Positions 24,948 through 31,326 of a DNA stretch of 33,780 bases are shown in pieces (the first letter of the stretch is position 1; each line of letters begins with the position of its first letter). Source of the DNA: Syntrophaceae bacterium (GTDB lineage Bacteria > Desulfobacterota > Syntrophia > Syntrophales > Smithellaceae); contig WRPE01000042.1 of NCBI GenBank assembly GCA_009773315.1, positions 1 to 33,780 of the forward strand. The letters are read 5' to 3'. Under the pieces are notes generated by a model. The model was not told the DNA's origin and searched no databases. It saw only the letters and a list, made by a program, of their open reading frames with translations. The position numbers and the translations under genes were made by a program.

Positions 24948-25442
24948 ATGACCATACCTATCGTATCCATTGTCGGTAAATCCAATACCGGGAAAACAAC
25001 GCTCCTGGAAAAACTTATCGCCGAGCTGGTCGGCAGGGGCTGGCGTGTTGCTACGATCAAGCATAACAAGCATGGTTTTAACATTGACCACGAAGGAAAA
25101 GACAGTTATCGTCATAAGAAAGCGGGCGCGCATATCACCGTTGTTTCATCGCCGAATCAGCTGGCATTCATCCAAGACGTGGATCATGATCATTCATTCG
25201 AGGAAATTCGGGATAAATTTATTACCGATGCGGATATCATTCTCACCGAGGGGCTCAAGGTAAATGACTATCCGAAAATTGAAGTGTTCCGCGCGGAACT
25301 CAAACGGGAATTGATCAGCGCCAAAGATGGTAACCTGTTGGCTGTGGCCTCGGATGTGCAACTGGACGTGGATGTCCCCTGCCTGGATATCAATGAACCA
25401 AAGGCAATCGCTGACTTTATCGAAAATAAATTCTTAAAGTAA
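24948..25442 (+). CDS. mobB: Molybdopterin-guanine dinucleotide biosynthesis protein MobB
   Basis: GTP-binding adaptor of molybdenum/tungsten cofactor maturation, 164 residues. Walker A VGKSNTGKTTL near residues 9-19, then VATIKHNKHGFNIDHEGKDSYRHKKAGA, which is the MobB hallmark (His-rich, following switch region), and ILTEGLKVNDYPKIEVFR. The ATG at 24948 is chosen because it starts with the family N-terminus TIPIVSIVGKSNTGKTT; the longer frame from 24870 adds unrelated residues. No mobA or moa gene is near. Molybdo- or tungsto-enzymes such as formate dehydrogenases are expected in this kind of organism (inference). Confidence 0.93.
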   Translation: MTIPIVSIVGKSNTGKTTLLEKLIAELVGRGWRVATIKHNKHGFNIDHEGKDSYRHKKAGAHITVVSSPNQLAFIQDVDHDHSFEEIRDKFITDADIILTEGLKVNDYPKIEVFRAELKRELISAKDGNLLAVASDVQLDVDVPCLDINEPKAIADFIENKFLK

Positions 25443-25465
25443 AATTTCGTGCCTTGAATCCATTG

Positions 25466-25909
25466 CTACTTTACTCTCGTCCAGTAATGACTTTCGCAAA
25501 GAAACATTAAACAGGCCGTGACTTGTAACTTGTCCGGGGTAATCTGGACCAAAGAGCATTTGTATTCGGAGCCCTCTTCAACTTCATATATTCTTCCGTC
25601 GACATACCGGCCGGCTTCTTTTTTAAGGCCCCAGAGAATCAACATCCCCATCAGCGGTTTATCTTTTCTGTCTTTTTTACATGTTGTGCACAACGTATTC
25701 TCGGGGACTGTGGTCAGTTTTACAATTTTGCCGTAGTAAATCCCGTCCTTTTCAAATATTTCGACATTTGATCTTTCCTTGCCCTTGTCCTTGCCTTTGA
25801 GAATCGGCAAAGACCATACGCCGATAATGGATTTATCGGCCGCATAACCCGTAAAAGAAAATGTTATAACGAAAATGAATGTCATCAAAAAAAGTATCGC
25901 TTTTTTCAT
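25466..25909 (-). CDS. DUF2147-family exported protein
   Basis: Exported protein of 147 residues with a clear signal peptide (MKKAILFLMTFIFVITFSFTGYAA). The mature part follows the DUF2147 pattern: IIGVWSLP at the start, VEIFEKDGIYYGKIVKL, a C-T-T-C pair, PLMGMLILWGLKK, GRIYEVEEGSEYKCSL and a C-terminal aromatic/basic end (HYWTRVK). Family function is unknown; the fold is lipocalin-like. Two further Cys near the C-terminus could form disulphides in the periplasm. Convergent with mobB, 23 bases apart. Single gene; the region upstream contains the first heptad repeat element. Confidence 0.85.
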   Translation of the reverse strand: MKKAILFLMTFIFVITFSFTGYAADKSIIGVWSLPILKGKDKGKERSNVEIFEKDGIYYGKIVKLTTVPENTLCTTCKKDRKDKPLMGMLILWGLKKEAGRYVDGRIYEVEEGSEYKCSLVQITPDKLQVTACLMFLCESHYWTRVK

Positions 25910-25992
25910 ATTTGCCCTCCTGCCGTAATCCTGTGAATGACATCAACCTCCTGCAAGCATATGAGCAATATCCTTTGAGCGCAAGGGGGAAA

Positions 25993-26159
25993 AGGCTGAA
26001 GACTAAAGGCTGAAGGCCAGAATGGAAAGTGCTTTGCACACTATTCACCGGCGCAGGCCGCCAGCCAAAATCATAAAACACCGAGGGCCTACAAAACAGA
26101 CCTTCAGTCTTCAGTCTTCAGTCTTCAGTCTCGTGTGACCTCGCGCCACCTCGTGTGAC
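25993..26159. repeat. Heptad inverted-arm element, copy A
   Basis: Left arm of 7-nt units (AGGCTGA AGACTAA AGGCTGA AGGCC, 25993-26018); right arm of four perfect tandem CTTCAGT units at 26102-26129, largely complementary to the left arm when G-T pairs are allowed. A small hairpin GTGC-TTT-GCAC lies between. Just to the right, CTCGTGTGAC occurs twice (26130-26139 and 26150-26159, 20-bp period). Together with copies B and C it defines a local repeat family; this 284-bp spacer holds no gene. Confidence 0.6.
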
Positions 26160-26193
26160 TTTCAGGTCATCAGGTGGTTAGGTTAGCAGGGGA

Positions 26194-26571
26194 TCAGCCT
26201 AAGTCCCTGAATTTGATCGGATCGGTCGCGTAAAGGACGGCGCGCTCGACACCCTCCTCGCGGAAATGATGGGTTTTTAGATAATCGGGATTATTGGCCA
26301 TCGCAAGGAACGCTTTGCGTGATGGGTATTGCACCAGCATGAGCAAATCCCACGTTTCTTCGCCATTGAGCAACTCGTCGGGTTTCCCCAGATACAAGAC
26401 TTTTCCCCCAACGCCTTCGACAAATCCTCCCGCTTCTCTGGTGTACCGCGCGTAAGAGGCTTGACCTTCCACGCCTCTGAACTTCAGCAGATTAAGCATG
26501 ACCACCGGCCCATCATGGGGATTCTTGGCCAATTTGCGGAATTCTTCGGGGTTGGATTTAATTTCAGTCAT
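26194..26571 (-). CDS. DUF1330-family protein
   Basis: Small cytoplasmic protein, 125 residues, of the DUF1330 group of dimeric alpha/beta-barrel (ferredoxin-like) proteins. Recognised by VVMLNLLKFRG, YARYTREAGGFVEGVGGKVLYLG and the segment WDLLMLVQYPSRKAFLAMANNPDYLKTHHFREEG, in which an aromatic and a SR-x-AF motif are usual. No catalytic residues are established for the family. AAGGAGAAAC lies just upstream of the ATG at 26571. It stands 40 bases downstream of the PFK-2/FBPase-2-like gene on the same strand and may be cotranscribed with it. Confidence 0.85.
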   Translation of the reverse strand: MTEIKSNPEEFRKLAKNPHDGPVVMLNLLKFRGVEGQASYARYTREAGGFVEGVGGKVLYLGKPDELLNGEETWDLLMLVQYPSRKAFLAMANNPDYLKTHHFREEGVERAVLYATDPIKFRDLG

Positions 26572-26610
26572 TTTAGTTTCTCCTTCTTTGAAAATATTTC
26601 ATGTAGGTGA

Positions 26611-27828
26611 TCAATCATATCTTTTCAGTTCAAAAAGTTTTTTATTTTGCGTGGACACGATGTGGTAGAAACGGTCCTGCGGGATATAAATATAAGGAAC
26701 ATCAACGTCGCGCCGGTAAAGAAAATGTGACAGGATCAAACGATTAACAGCCTGATGGCCGACAATCATAATATTTTCCGCGCGCCGGTTGAGAAAGAAT
26801 GATTTTTTAATTCCCGCCTCGATTCTCGATTTCATCGCCGCGTAACTTTCACCCTCGGGATACACATAAGCGTATTTATGGGCTTCGCGCTCACGAAAGA
26901 CCTGCGGCATCTTTTTTTCAATCTCGGCATAGGTCATGCCCTCGCAGACGCCGGCATTGATTTCATCAAACTCTTTGAGCGCGATAATCCGACAATCGCT
27001 TTGTTTTTCTGCGATAGCTTCCGCCGTTCTTTTAGTTCTCAGCTTGCTGCTGGTAAAGATGTAAGATATTTCCTTTTTGACAAAAAATTGCCCCAGGGCT
27101 TCGGCCTGTTCCCTTCCTTTGGAAGTCAAGCCGGAATCGCCGCCAATGCGGTCCTCCAGGTTATACTCCGTTTGGGCATGCCGGATCAGAAAAAGATTTT
27201 TAACTTCGTCTGTGACCAGATAATCGCGCAGGCGTGCGTAAAGGGGAATCGAATCGGTATGCTTTTCTTCGATAATCTTATTTTGCAGTGAATCCAGGCG
27301 TACATAATTCCGCTCAACTTTAAGCGGCGCATAAATCATCTTGTAGTAGTTTATGCGTTTGAGAAACTCCGTTTCAGCCTGCAACCGGTCCATGCGAGCA
27401 AATTCGGGAAGCTTCGTTTTTTCCAGAATACTCCAGGACAAAATATCCTCATCATCATTGATACACTCGATATAAAGCAGAGGATGGTCGTCGAGATATT
27501 GCTCCATCATTTCCCGGCGGTTTCGCCCCGCATTCGTCGCATCCAAAATAGCCACCTGTCCGGAATTGCGCAGGTAGGCTCTGCCCCTTTCCATATTCAT
27601 GCGGGCGAATTTTTTTCTCAGCGCCACGGCCGCCGGATTATTCGGGGAATAAAACTCGGCGCAGGATGTTTCCTTAAGCGGCCTGTAAATCCGGCGCAGA
27701 TTGCCGTTGTTAAATATCCGGGTATGAATATTATCTTTATGGAAAGCCTCCCTCAGGCGCACGGCCAGCGTGGATTTGCCACGGGCAGGCAGCCCCATCA
27801 GGACAATATATAGTTTATCATCGTTCAT
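26611..27828 (-). CDS. 6-phosphofructo-2-kinase/fructose-2,6-bisphosphatase-like bifunctional protein
   Basis: The 405-residue protein has the domain order of the eukaryotic PFKFB enzyme. Kinase half (1-205): Walker A GLPARGKST at 12-20, RIFNNGNLRR (compare the FNVG-x-YRR segment), FYSPNNPAA, AILDATNAGRNRR at 93-105, ECINDD, and FLKRINYYKMIYAPL. Phosphatase half (211-405): RHAQTEYNL with the phospho-accepting His at 217, RIGGDSGLTSKG, EINAGVCEGMTYAEI at 289-303, YPEGESY at 323-329 and VGHQAVNR with His 358. All catalytic residues of both halves appear intact. In eukaryotes it makes and breaks fructose 2,6-bisphosphate, a regulator of PFK-1 and FBPase. Such a regulator is not established in bacteria, so the substrate here could differ. 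Same strand as the DUF1330 gene downstream; the glycolytic genes pyk, gap, pgk and tpiA lie 1-6 kb away. Confidence 0.88.
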   Translation of the reverse strand: MNDDKLYIVLMGLPARGKSTLAVRLREAFHKDNIHTRIFNNGNLRRIYRPLKETSCAEFYSPNNPAAVALRKKFARMNMERGRAYLRNSGQVAILDATNAGRNRREMMEQYLDDHPLLYIECINDDEDILSWSILEKTKLPEFARMDRLQAETEFLKRINYYKMIYAPLKVERNYVRLDSLQNKIIEEKHTDSIPLYARLRDYLVTDEVKNLFLIRHAQTEYNLEDRIGGDSGLTSKGREQAEALGQFFVKKEISYIFTSSKLRTKRTAEAIAEKQSDCRIIALKEFDEINAGVCEGMTYAEIEKKMPQVFREREAHKYAYVYPEGESYAAMKSRIEAGIKKSFFLNRRAENIMIVGHQAVNRLILSHFLYRRDVDVPYIYIPQDRFYHIVSTQNKKLFELKRYD

Positions 27829-27861
27829 AAACTTTTGACCACACTCTTGCCGTCCAAGCTC

Positions 27862-27891
27862 CGTAGAGACGTTGCATGCAACATCTCCACG
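27862..27891. repeat. 30-bp near-perfect palindrome at the end of the flavoprotein gene
   Basis: CGTAGAGAC-GTTGCATGCAAC-ATCTCCACG: 26 of 30 positions are self-complementary (two A-C mismatch pairs). It abuts the TAA of the iron-sulphur flavoprotein-like gene and lies 34 bp before the start of the PFK-2-like gene. It looks like a dispersed palindromic repeat that may serve as terminator or mRNA 3' stabiliser. Confidence 0.55.
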
Positions 27892-28461
27892 TTATCTGAC
27901 CATTTTACGACCGATGTCAAAAGCCTGCTCCAGAAGCTCCTGGTTTCCGGTTGCGGGCTTCTCTGCGCTGTCTGTATGAACAATTTTCCCCACAACATCC
28001 ATACCCAGACCGCTGCCAGTCATACCGGTCAGATACATAATGGATTTCTGATATTGCACGGGATCGGGCGCACCCTGAGAAATCGCCAGTGCGTAAGTTT
28101 TGCCCGGAGGCACCATGGATTTGTAGCCGCCCTGCGGCAAATTGGCATAAAGAGAATAAATGCGATCCACAAACAGTTTCATCTGGCCGGACAAACGGTA
28201 CATATAAATGGGGCAACCGAGGACCATTCCCGTACAGGTTTTGATCGCTTCCAGGTAAGGGCTCAACTCATCTTTCGCGCTGCAAAACCCTGGATTTTTC
28301 CGGCAACCCAGGCAACCCAGGCAGCCTTTGAAGTTAATGTCATGAAGCCGCACCTCGGTGGTCTGGGTGCCGCGCGATCGCGCACCCTCCAGCATGGAGG
28401 CAACGATGGCGGATGTGTTTCCCTGTGAACGTGGACTTCCATTGAACGCTAAAATTTGCAT
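27892..28461 (-). CDS. Iron-sulphur flavoprotein-like / NADPH-dependent FMN reductase family protein
   Basis: Flavodoxin-fold protein of 189 residues. The N-terminal FMN-phosphate loop GSPRSQGNT follows the first strand (residues 8-16). A compact cysteine motif C-x2-C-x2-C-x6-C (C47, C50, C53, C60) matches the [4Fe-4S]-binding arrangement of archaeal/anaerobe iron-sulphur flavoproteins (Isf). GCPIYMYRLSGQMKLFVDRIYSL near 100-122 is typical of the NAD(P)H-dependent oxidoreductase family. Such proteins transfer electrons from ferredoxin or reduce oxygen, peroxide or quinones in anaerobes. AGGAG precedes the ATG at 28461. The specific electron partner is unknown. Flanked by the palindrome at its 3' end and by the heptad element copy B at its 5' end. 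Confidence 0.85.
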   Translation of the reverse strand: MQILAFNGSPRSQGNTSAIVASMLEGARSRGTQTTEVRLHDINFKGCLGCLGCRKNPGFCSAKDELSPYLEAIKTCTGMVLGCPIYMYRLSGQMKLFVDRIYSLYANLPQGGYKSMVPPGKTYALAISQGAPDPVQYQKSIMYLTGMTGSGLGMDVVGKIVHTDSAEKPATGNQELLEQAFDIGRKMVR

Positions 28462-28482
28462 AAAAAACTCCTTTAGGGGTTT

Positions 28483-28616
28483 AGGCTGTAGACTGAAGAC
28501 TGAAGGCCATTTTGTGGGCGCTTCGCGCCCATCACTCTATCCTAATAATACTTCAGACTATTGGCCTATCGTCTTTTTTACCTTCAGCCTTCAGCCTTCG
28601 GTCTTCAGCCTTTAGC
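28483..28616. repeat. Heptad inverted-arm element, copy B
   Basis: Left arm AGGCTGT AGACTGA AGACTGA AGGCC (28483-28508); central perfect hairpin TGGGCGC-TTC-GCGCCCA (28515-28531); right arm CTTCAGC CTTCAGC CTTCGGT CTTCAGC CTTTAGC (28582-28616), which runs straight into the pyk stop codon. The arms are complementary apart from G-T pairs and a few mismatches, so the whole could fold into one long hairpin between pyk and the flavoprotein gene. Confidence 0.65.
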
Positions 28617-30023
28617 CTATTTCAACCTTTTCACTCTCAACATATTCGTCGTTCCCGACACCCAGATCGGATGGCCGACGGTGATGACAATCAAATCTCC
28701 CGGCTTTGCTTCACCGGACGCCAAGGCAGCCTGAGAGGCTTTTTCAATCATATCATCCGTATCATGCAGATCGTTGACCAGGCGGGGCAGACAACCCCAG
28801 CTTAAGGCAAGACGCCGTATGGTGTTTTTATTGGGTGATAAGGCAACAATCGTCTGGCTGGGGCGAAAGCGGGAGATGTAGCGGGCTGTTCTGCCGGACT
28901 GGGTATGGGCAACAATAGCCTTTGCCTCCAGATGACGGGCCAGAACACAGGAGGCGTGAGCAACCGATTCGGAAATATCATTCCTGGGGATCATAGCCAG
29001 AAATTCTTCAAACGGAAAACCGCTCTCAGCGGCGGAGACCAGACGGCTCATATACAAAACAGCCTCCACCGGATAGTCGCCGGATGCTGTTTCTTCGGAG
29101 AGCATGACAGCATCGGTGCCGTCGAGCACGGCGTTTGCGACGTCGGCGGCTTCGGCACGGGTAGGCCGCGGCGAAGAAACCATCGAACGCAGCATCTGTG
29201 TCGCGGTGATGACCGGCTTACCTGCGGCGTTGGCTTTTGCAATCAACTTCTTTTGAATCAGCGGAACATCTTCCAGTGGTATTTCCACACCCAGATCACC
29301 GCGCGCAACCATGATGCCGTCCGAAATACCCATGATGGCGTCAATGTTATCAACGGCTTCATGTTTTTCTATTTTGGCGATCACCGGGGTATCTTTGCCC
29401 TTTGCGGCAATAATATCTTTGACCCTTTTGATGTCGTCCGCAATTTTAACGAAAGATAAGGCGATAAAATCAACCCCATTTTCCAGGCCGAACAGCAGAT
29501 CATTGCAGTCTTTTTCAGTGAGGGATGCCGTGCGGATTGTGCCAGTCGGCAGGTTAATTCCCTTATGCGACGTCAGAAGGCCACCGGTGACTACTTTGCA
29601 GATAATATCGATATCATTCGCCTCTTCAACGACTAGCTCCATCAAGCCGTCGGCCAAAAGCAGCCTGTCTCCGGTTTTCACTTCCTTCGGCAAATCCTTA
29701 TACGTGAGCGACACTGCCTCTATGCCGCCTTCGATCGGGCGGCTGGTTAAAATAAATTGATGGCCCGACGTCAGTACAATGCCGGGCGCAGGAATTGTGC
29801 CGATTCGGATTTTCGGTCCGGCCAGATCCAGCAGAATCGCCACCGGCCGGTCAAGTTTTGCGGACAGCTCGCGAATCGTTTTGATCTTTTGCAGATGACC
29901 TTCGTGCGAACCATGCGAGAAATTCAGCCGCGCCACATTCATACCGTTCAAGATCAAGGCTTGAAGAACGTCTGCCTTTTCGGAAGACGGTCCGATGGTG
30001 CAGACAATTTTTGTTTTTTTCAT
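28617..30023 (-). CDS. pyk: Pyruvate kinase
   Basis: Converts phosphoenolpyruvate and ADP to pyruvate and ATP. It has 468 residues, standard length. N-terminal KTKIVCTIGPSS and GMNVARLNFSHGSHEGH (substrate-binding), ILLDLAGPKIRIG, the active-site signature VIAKIEKHEAVDNIDAIMGISDGIMVARGDLGVEIP, and ITATQMLRSMVSSPRPTRAEAADVANAVLDGTDAVMLSEETA are all canonical. The C-terminal allosteric domain is complete. AAGGAG lies five bases before the ATG at 30023. It is divergent from the gap-pgk-tpiA operon across a 304-bp spacer that holds heptad element copy C. Confidence 0.97.
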   Translation of the reverse strand: MKKTKIVCTIGPSSEKADVLQALILNGMNVARLNFSHGSHEGHLQKIKTIRELSAKLDRPVAILLDLAGPKIRIGTIPAPGIVLTSGHQFILTSRPIEGGIEAVSLTYKDLPKEVKTGDRLLLADGLMELVVEEANDIDIICKVVTGGLLTSHKGINLPTGTIRTASLTEKDCNDLLFGLENGVDFIALSFVKIADDIKRVKDIIAAKGKDTPVIAKIEKHEAVDNIDAIMGISDGIMVARGDLGVEIPLEDVPLIQKKLIAKANAAGKPVITATQMLRSMVSSPRPTRAEAADVANAVLDGTDAVMLSEETASGDYPVEAVLYMSRLVSAAESGFPFEEFLAMIPRNDISESVAHASCVLARHLEAKAIVAHTQSGRTARYISRFRPSQTIVALSPNKNTIRRLALSWGCLPRLVNDLHDTDDMIEKASQAALASGEAKPGDLIVITVGHPIWVSGTTNMLRVKRLK

Positions 30024-30034
30024 AAGCTCCTTTT

Positions 30035-30142
30035 GCGCTTCGCGCAGGCTATAGGTTCATAGGCTGTAGGCTATAGGTTTTTCTGTGGGGGCGCGCTGCG
30101 CCCCGCTTTATTCCATCGCCTATGGCCCATCGCCCCTAGCCT
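30035..30142. repeat. Heptad inverted-arm element, copy C
   Basis: A GCGCTTCGCGC hairpin (30035-30045) is followed by a left arm AGGCTAT AGGTTCAT AGGCTGT AGGCTAT AGG (30046-30077), a central perfect hairpin GGGGCGC-GCT-GCGCCCC (30088-30104) and a right arm (30114-30142) made of related units ending CCCTAGCCT. The arm units differ in sequence from copies A and B but keep the 7-nt period and inverted layout. It lies just upstream of pyk. The rest of the 304-bp pyk/gap spacer holds the gap promoter region. Confidence 0.6.
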
Positions 30143-30238
30143 TTCTTTTTTCTCTAACAGATTCACAGGGGAACTTCAAGGAATTCGACCGGGAAACGGG
30201 TAACAGTAGGAACACTCTATCTGCCCTAAACTATTGTC

Positions 30239-30300
30239 GTTAAAGAGAAATGGGTGTTAAAGAGAAATGGGTTGACATCCCATGGACTTTTGTCTAATCT
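30239..30300 (+). promoter_or_regulatory. gap: Putative gap promoter with 16-bp tandem direct repeat
   Basis: GTTAAAGAGAAATGGG occurs twice (30239-30254 and 30256-30271, period 17). A perfect -35 hexamer TTGACA follows at once (30272-30277). Seventeen bases later TAATCT (30295-30300) is a weak -10. The arrangement, tandem sites immediately upstream of -35, suggests an activator site or a recent duplication. Confidence 0.45.
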
Positions 30301-30327
30301 TTCGTCTATAATTTTAAGGAGGAGAAT

Positions 30328-31326
30328 ATGGCTGTAAAGATTGCAATTAACGGATTCGGAAGGATCGGCCGACTGGTTTTTCGCGCCGGTTATAAAAACA
30401 AGGATGTGGAATTCGTGGCAGTCAATGATCTGGCCGACGCTAAAACACTGGCTCACCTGCTTAAATATGATTCAATTCACGGCACACTCAATGCCGAAGT
30501 AAAATCCACACCCAATGCCATCATTGTTGACGGCAAGGAAATGAAGGCTTTTTCCGCAAGAGACCCGGAAACACTGCCCTGGAAATACCTGGGGGTAGAT
30601 GTTGTTCTGGAGAGCACGGGAAGATTCACCGATAAAGATGGAGCCGAAAAACATCTGAAAGCCGGCGCCAGAAAAGTGGTGATCTCCGCACCCGCCAAAG
30701 GGGCGGACGTGACGGTTGTTTTCGGCGTCAATCCTCAAGACTATGACAAATCGAAACATCACATTATCTCCATGGGCTCCTGCACCACCAACTGCCTGGC
30801 GCCGATCGTCAGAATTCTGCATGAGGAATTCGGCGTGGAATACGGTCTGATGACGACGATTCATTCCTACACCAACGATCAGGTGGTACTCGACGAGCCG
30901 CACAAGGATTTGCGCAGGGCGCGCGCCTCCGCGCTTTCCATGATTCCCACAACCACCGGCGCGGCCCGCGCCATTGCAGAAGTCATTCCGGATATGAAGG
31001 GCAAGCTTGACGGCCTGGCGATCCGCGTGCCCACACCCAATGTTTCACTGGTCGATTTTGTGGCGACACTATCGCGCGAAACGAGCAAGCAGGAAGTCAA
31101 TGAAAAACTCAAAGAGTATTCGCAAAAAGCGATGAAGGGCATTTTGTTTTGCTCGGAAGAAGAGCTGGTGTCCCGCGACTTTAGCGGCAATCCGCATTCT
31201 TCGATTGTGGATATGCCCAATACAACCGTTATCGGCGGCAAAATGGTGAAAATACTTTCATGGTATGACAACGAATGGGGCTTTTCCAATCGCATGCTCG
31301 AACTGTTGTCCTTCATCATGAAATGA
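30328..31326 (+). CDS. gap: Glyceraldehyde-3-phosphate dehydrogenase, type I
   Basis: Interconverts glyceraldehyde 3-phosphate and 1,3-bisphosphoglycerate with NAD(P). It has 332 residues, standard. N-terminal INGFGRIGRLVFRA binds the nucleotide; the acidic N-D pair at 33-34 after the second strand favours NAD. The catalytic signature SCTTNCLAP has the active Cys at 152, and the catalytic His lies in TTIHSYTNDQ. AAGGAGGAG precedes the ATG. First gene of gap-pgk-tpiA; 20 bases separate it from pgk. Confidence 0.97.
   Translation: MAVKIAINGFGRIGRLVFRAGYKNKDVEFVAVNDLADAKTLAHLLKYDSIHGTLNAEVKSTPNAIIVDGKEMKAFSARDPETLPWKYLGVDVVLESTGRFTDKDGAEKHLKAGARKVVISAPAKGADVTVVFGVNPQDYDKSKHHIISMGSCTTNCLAPIVRILHEEFGVEYGLMTTIHSYTNDQVVLDEPHKDLRRARASALSMIPTTTGAARAIAEVIPDMKGKLDGLAIRVPTPNVSLVDFVATLSRETSKQEVNEKLKEYSQKAMKGILFCSEEELVSRDFSGNPHSSIVDMPNTTVIGGKMVKILSWYDNEWGFSNRMLELLSFIMK

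Follow-up and report, generated by a model that had tools for sequence, protein, structure and literature searches.

Fructose 2,6-bisphosphate (F26BP) is usually described as a eukaryotic signalling device; in plants it acts on the pyrophosphate-dependent phosphofructokinase (PPi-PFK). Bacterial homologues of the enzyme that interconverts it with fructose 6-phosphate (PFK-2/FBPase-2, termed PFKFB in animals) are likely to have been annotated automatically in databases. The metabolite is reported to inhibit the class I FBPase of mammals and Leishmania competitively, with Ki values of 0.2–1.9 uM (PMC5639204), and to activate trypanosomatid pyruvate kinase (PMC4448766). With reference to an evolutionary survey of 2006, a 2026 preprint says of PFK regulation by F26BP that it 'appears to be a eukaryote-specific mechanism' (PMC12873801). 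The passages of glycolysis reviews that we consulted name no bacterial PFK-2, and a literature search on prokaryotic PFK-2 gave no bacterial enzyme among the matches listed, with most subscription journals outside its coverage, so that an earlier description is possible. For archaea, a predicted 'pfkfb3' ORF of Methanobrevibacter ruminantium M1 is named 6-phosphofructo-2-kinase/fructose-2,6-bisphosphate 2-phosphatase, as a bioinformatic annotation (PMC7772410).

A bacterial PFK-2/FBPase-2

The window (the whole stretch of 33,780 nucleotides that we analysed, from a Syntrophaceae bacterium of the GTDB family Smithellaceae) is part of contig C6, in a genome of 2.98 Mb and 86 contigs. Its reverse strand holds a frame with an ATG start and zero internal stops, encoding a protein of two domains:

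26611..27828, reverse strand: PFK-2/FBPase-2-like bifunctional protein, 405 aa (ORF, Pfam, PDB match, 83-protein alignment)
27310..27828, reverse strand: N-terminal 6-phosphofructo-2-kinase-like domain, residues about 1–173 (Pfam, alignment to PFKFB3)
26614..27198, reverse strand: C-terminal fructose-2,6-bisphosphatase-like histidine phosphatase domain, residues about 211–405 (Pfam, model fit)

The Pfam profiles 6PF2K (residues 2–173, E = 3e–34) and His_Phos_1 (residues 212–376, E = 2.6e–39) both scored over their curated cut-offs. In a phmmer search of PDB the best solved relative was PFKFB2, aligned to residues 5–389 (385 residues, 7.6e–64), followed by more PFK-2/FBPase-2 chains; all 12 PDB sequences at 1e–50 or better were PFK-2/FBPase-2, and, excised FBPase-2 domains excepted, non-PFK-2 phosphatases matched at 2.7e–13 or weaker and in the C-terminal half. 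NCBIfam gave 17 matching models, every one a phosphatase and every one under its cut-off; the best, alpha-ribazole phosphatase CobC, was rejected as an identification (96.9 bits vs. a cut-off of 162.9).

The AlphaFold model of the protein (mean pLDDT 88.6, built from 31 sequences) had PFKFB chains as all of its best 26 Foldseek matches, over 414–420 columns, and VIA-align gave Z values of 30.4–32.9 for 25 PFKFB entries. The rat FBPase-2 domain alone (1fbt_A) fitted the model with an rmsd of 1.7 A over 187 residues (Z 26.8). Each half of this single-chain prediction fits the crystals separately, while the whole-chain rmsd is 15–17 A; the model thus sets the two halves in a different relative position than the PFKFB crystals do, whether genuinely or through an error of prediction. 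Structure prediction, one of the checks proposed in the original prediction, thus returned PFKFB folds for both halves. The Pfam domains, the PDB match and the fold together bear out its claim of an N-terminal kinase and a C-terminal His phosphatase in PFKFB order, and the signature segments that it quoted are present in the 405-aa translation. By architecture, sequence and fold, the window gene is a PFK-2/FBPase-2.

We aligned the window protein with 82 non-identical proteins from 92 loci (n = 83), which are 32 to 93% identical to it, together with stretches of PFKFB2 and PFKFB3. Ligand contacts reported for the fructose 6-phosphate pocket of PFKFB3 are R74, R75, R98, D124, T126, R132, R189 and Y193, with R132 sitting at the 6-phosphate (PMC3177832). 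The corresponding kinase residues of the window protein, by alignment to PFKFB3, are R45, R46, R71, D96, T98, R104, R158 and Y162, together with K137. Equivalents of PFKFB3 R74, R75, R98, D124, R132, K168 (which we take to be a further residue of this pocket), R189 and Y193 were kept in all 83 bacterial proteins; the T126 column was mixed (T in 58, S in 19, A in five and N in one). The equivalents of R74, R75, R98, R132, K168, R189 and Y193 make up seven of the 19 invariant columns in the first 180 residues, and the odds of all seven falling in invariant columns are about 5e–8, assuming column independence.

The phosphatase site was kept to the same extent. Residues R216, H217, N223, R264, E289, R314, K318 and H358 of the window protein align with R252, H253, N259, R302, E322, R347, K351 and H387, and all eight are invariant in the 83 proteins; in the rat enzyme these positions presumably include the His nucleophile, an Arg, the acid Glu, the second His, and Arg/Lys for the 6-phosphate. 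Position 302 is S in PFKFB3 but R in PFKFB2 and in every bacterial protein. The residue after RH, glycine in PFKFB, is G in 57 proteins, T in 19 and A in seven including the window protein, and the next is E in 58 and Q in 25, again including the window protein. Altogether 53 of the 405 columns were invariant, and 47 of these 53 are identical in PFKFB2 and PFKFB3. The claim that all catalytic residues are present is therefore upheld by the alignment for the phosphatase active site and the pocket, and the loss of fructose-6-phosphate-binding residues, named beforehand as the outcome that would count against the prediction, was not seen, with seven pocket and eight phosphatase residues invariant in 83 proteins. 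From this conservation, the enzyme likely makes F26BP.

Distribution and ancestry in Desulfobacterota

We surveyed 395 sampled Desulfobacterota genomes and 14 control genomes with the 6PF2K profile at E ≤ 1e–10. Carriers numbered 58 of the 395 genomes, in 30 of 245 genera and spanning ten family codes, and no control genome matched at that limit; at a looser limit of 1e–3, three of the 14 controls matched, under the family cut-off. The open frame was 405 aa or longer in 57 carriers, and the exception (G368, 326 aa) reaches a contig end. A scan of named contigs, made with patterns from a single protein and detecting close relatives only, added cultured carriers, including Desulfobulbus alkaliphilus, D. 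elongatus, D. rhabdoformis and three Desulfogranum species; the nearest relative in that scan belonged to a Smithellaceae MAG (93% identity to the window protein). At least one close relative appears to lack the gene, since a 99% complete genome of the window's genus (G067) had no 6PF2K match at 1e–10, and the same search found the gene in none of the eight genomes sampled from other families of this order. On one MAG contig (L036:7380-8231) a relative aligns only from residue 173, possibly because the gene is broken or misassembled, and was left out of counts. The window genome itself has a further, weak match to the 6PF2K profile (G000:C60:17820-18224; 20 bits, under the cut-off, with two in-frame stops).

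A viral or plasmid origin was rejected on searches of phage, plasmid and viral-contig sequences. The kinase half had no match in 50,697 phage records. Plasmid matches were found in 84 records, none covering >80% of the protein, and the 20 of these that were listed all start at residue 165 or later and so cover the phosphatase part. Twelve stretches of viral contigs matched the search patterns, none encoding a relative.

In the gene tree, which is unrooted and includes two eukaryotic rows only, the 82 main bacterial proteins formed one group, while L070, a long branch, stood apart with the two PFKFB rows (SH-aLRT 100). This second, divergent bacterial PFK-2/FBPase-2 (L070:8022-9221, genome G359, family code f63) shares architecture, pocket and active-site residues with the window protein but is nearer to PFKFB (38% identity, vs. 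32% to the window protein; 4.5e–76 to PFKFB3), and is possibly a separate transfer. Within the main group, the proteins of the window's family code (f1) and near kin were nested inside those of f37, with support of 100 for the joint clade (26 rows) and 92 for an inner node excluding two f37 rows. In the rpoB tree, f1 clusters instead with f2 and f6 of its own order (support 100), and f37 forms a clade of its own (100). Lateral transfer from an f37-like donor is the simplest reading of this disagreement between trees, and Smithellaceae probably acquired the gene laterally.

Gene neighbours and co-occurrence with class I FBPase

The window gene stands in a same-strand series of pyk, FMN reductase, PFK-2/FBPase-2 and DUF1330 genes, with gaps of 155, 63 and 39 bp, respectively:

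28617..30023, reverse strand: pyruvate kinase gene, upstream (Pfam)
27892..28461, reverse strand: NADPH-dependent FMN reductase-like gene, between pyk and the PFK-2/FBPase-2 gene (Pfam, ORF list)
26194..26571, reverse strand: DUF1330 protein, 39 bp downstream (Pfam, ORF list)

The pyk and PFK-2/FBPase-2 genes are possibly one transcription unit, and the gap, pgk and tpiA genes of the window lie on the opposite strand. A scan for promoters and terminators gave 9 and 10 sites vs. 4.6 and 5.1 in shuffles and was set aside, and no Rfam family reached its gathering score in 25400-30400 of the window. At 27892..28461 the neighbourhood table shows an overlapping opposite-strand frame, and the FMN reductase was taken from the ORF list and Pfam; an ORF matching it in place and size was listed in the related loci L003 and L004 and none in L005, L006 or L123, its presence in the first two and absence from the lists of L006 and L123 suggesting a recent insertion or loss.

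Because ORF-based listing of neighbours can overlook a gene that lies beneath a longer frame on the other strand, as happened with the FBPase gene of L075, we searched again for the named enzymes at the DNA level, at 84 loci with flanks of up to 8.5 kb per side (6 kb or more upstream in 57 of the 84). A same-strand upstream pyk was found at five loci (the window, L003, L004, L006 and L123), and gap, pgk and tpi each at five (the window, L003, L004, L005 and L123), all within one genus-level clade of six; the flanks searched at the other 78 loci held no homologue of the window's pyk, gap, pgk or tpiA. By the ORF-based listing, the commonest neighbour family occurred at 17 of the 84 loci and none was universal, and we rejected a conserved operon as general evidence of function. 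The proximity to glycolysis genes, which the original prediction took to favour a role in carbon-flux control, is thus true of the window, but as support for that role it is weak, the linkage being confined to a single genus-level clade.

A class I FBPase gene lay 3.4–5.5 kb upstream (between midpoints) on the same strand at 11 of the 84 loci in the DNA-level search (L010, L075, L085, L086, L088, L089, L091, L103, L111, L117 and L122). These have family codes f38 or f54 or are the related L010, in a clade other than the window's, and this confinement probably reflects one inherited arrangement, which also has Bax1-I and radical-SAM family genes among its neighbours. At other loci the annotated neighbours were unrelated, for example dehydroquinate synthase with ATP-sulfurylase, tyrosyl-tRNA synthetase, or acyl-CoA dehydrogenase. 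The genomic-context argument rests on two local arrangements.

For co-occurrence in whole genomes, the 58 carriers were compared with 80 sampled non-carriers using the profiles PF00316, PF03320 and PF00365. Class I FBPase (PF00316) was present in all 58 carriers vs. 33 of the 80 non-carriers, and in 56 of 56 vs. 32 of 66 when genomes were restricted to those ≥90% complete and ≤5% contaminated. There was no such excess for GlpX (PF03320; 13 of 58 vs. 16 of 80), and PFK (PF00365) was found in 57 of 58 vs. 71 of 80. Since these genomes are related, three corrections for kinship were tried. At the family level, class I FBPase occurred in 10 of 10 carrier families vs. 21 of 43 without a sampled carrier (Fisher P = 0.0023). 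An rpoB tree covering 127 of the 138 genomes, in which the PFK-2/FBPase-2 gene requires 10 changes, was used to count independent pairs. For class I FBPase there were 3.6 in favour, 0 against and 5.4 showing no difference, which is not significant (median P = 0.125), and for GlpX 0.5 in favour and 1.8 against. Finally, the gene was simulated on the midpoint-rooted rpoB tree under a fitted two-state model, retaining the 2565 of 30000 runs that had 40–72 carriers; the median number of carriers lacking class I FBPase was 14, and none of the 2565 runs had zero. After correction for kinship the co-occurrence is suggestive. It also suggests a carbon-flux role better than does the proximity of pyk, gap, pgk and tpiA, and it could arise from a shared gluconeogenic lifestyle.

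The window genome has a single class I FBPase (L039:1105-2043), a divergent one that retains rabbit R243, Y244, Y264 and K274 but has no equivalents of N212, Y215 and R140. Of the FBPases checked in 30 other carriers, all have N212, R243, Y244, Y264 and K274, 13 have Y215 and 23 have R140. The E-value of the FBPase match was about 1e–35 in all seven f1 carriers vs. 1e–60 or better in the other 51. Given the divergence of the window-genome enzyme, FBPase as a target is best supported outside Smithellaceae.

A putative F26BP circuit and its alternatives

Our main reading, to which we give a probability of about 0.62, is that the bacterial PFK-2/FBPase-2 sets the level of F26BP, which restrains gluconeogenesis through class I FBPase. 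The kinase half would use ATP to phosphorylate C2 of fructose 6-phosphate, and the histidine-phosphatase half would take off the C2 phosphate, the level of F26BP being set by the ratio of the two activities; F26BP would then compete at the active site of class I FBPase, restraining gluconeogenesis, and may also act on the pyrophosphate-type PFK of the window genome. Government of FBPase by F26BP is plausible. For the broader proposal, that F26BP serves a bacterial phylum as a second messenger, with PFK-2/FBPase-2 keeping class I FBPase restrained while at least ten families of Desulfobacterota grow syntrophically or by sulfate reduction, we see the chances as even.

F26BP might instead be made but act chiefly on pyruvate kinase, as it does in trypanosomatids, or on PPi-PFK, as it does in plants, rather than on FBPase; we consider this doubtful. 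Pyruvate kinase is suggested by the pyk gene just upstream, on the same strand, at five of the six loci of the genus-level clade, but the DNA-level search placed none at the other 79 of 84 loci. PPi-PFK is suggested by the sole PFK match in the window genome, whose GGED and PKTIDGD motifs we take to be of the pyrophosphate type. Among carriers, however, the types are mixed: 44 of 50 PFK loci matched the motif search, and the position that, on our assumption, separates PPi from ATP types was D in 26, G in 17 and N in one, so that no single PFK target fits all, and PFK type was rejected as the common target. Presence of PFK, moreover, separates carriers from non-carriers poorly by the counts above, and a 95% complete genome of the window's family (G250), which carries both PFK-2/FBPase-2 and class I FBPase, had no PFK match at 1e–20.

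Other alternatives concern the chemistry. An enzyme of this fold could interconvert another sugar phosphate and bisphosphate, such as those of sedoheptulose or another ketose, as a signal or in repair. The T126 column, which varies in 25 of the 83 proteins, and phosphatase positions 254, 255 and 388, which in part of the set are unlike PFKFB2/PFKFB3, would fit such a substrate, but the invariance of the fructose-6-phosphate pocket and phosphatase residues argues against it and the co-occurrence with class I FBPase fits F26BP, making another sugar unlikely. Less probable still is that the two activities are joined by ancestry and have no signalling role, the protein being a phosphatase-dominant scavenger of sugar phosphates. 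Histidine phosphatases are often promiscuous, and the best NCBIfam match was to CobC, below cut-off; against this, the kinase site is kept as strictly as the phosphatase site across the 83 proteins.

The 58 carrier genomes among the 395, together with cultured carriers in Desulfobulbus and Desulfogranum, open the statement that this regulation is eukaryote-specific to a direct test. Should the enzyme function as its residues indicate, bacteria possess a textbook control circuit, and the question of where the eukaryotic enzyme arose is reopened, with bacterial candidates. If F26BP is indeed a second messenger here, the signal either was not a eukaryotic invention or crossed domains more than once (the main clade and L070).

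Among known systems, the M. ruminantium ORF is likewise prokaryotic, but is likened to the window protein by name only, in an assignment made by prediction (PMC7772410). The single-domain bacterial histidine phosphatases CobC, PhoE, PspA and GpmB share the C-terminal fold and sequence family and, unlike the window protein, are without the kinase half. Animal PFKFB agrees with it in domain order, in a near full-length alignment at ~35% identity, in the fructose-6-phosphate pocket and in the phosphatase active site. The window protein differs from the animal enzyme in its bacterial host, its length of 405 aa with a short N-terminus and little past the phosphatase domain, its Walker A motif (GKS rather than GKT) and its phosphatase motif (RHAQ rather than RHGE). 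The family is a known one, found here in a domain of life where it was not expected.
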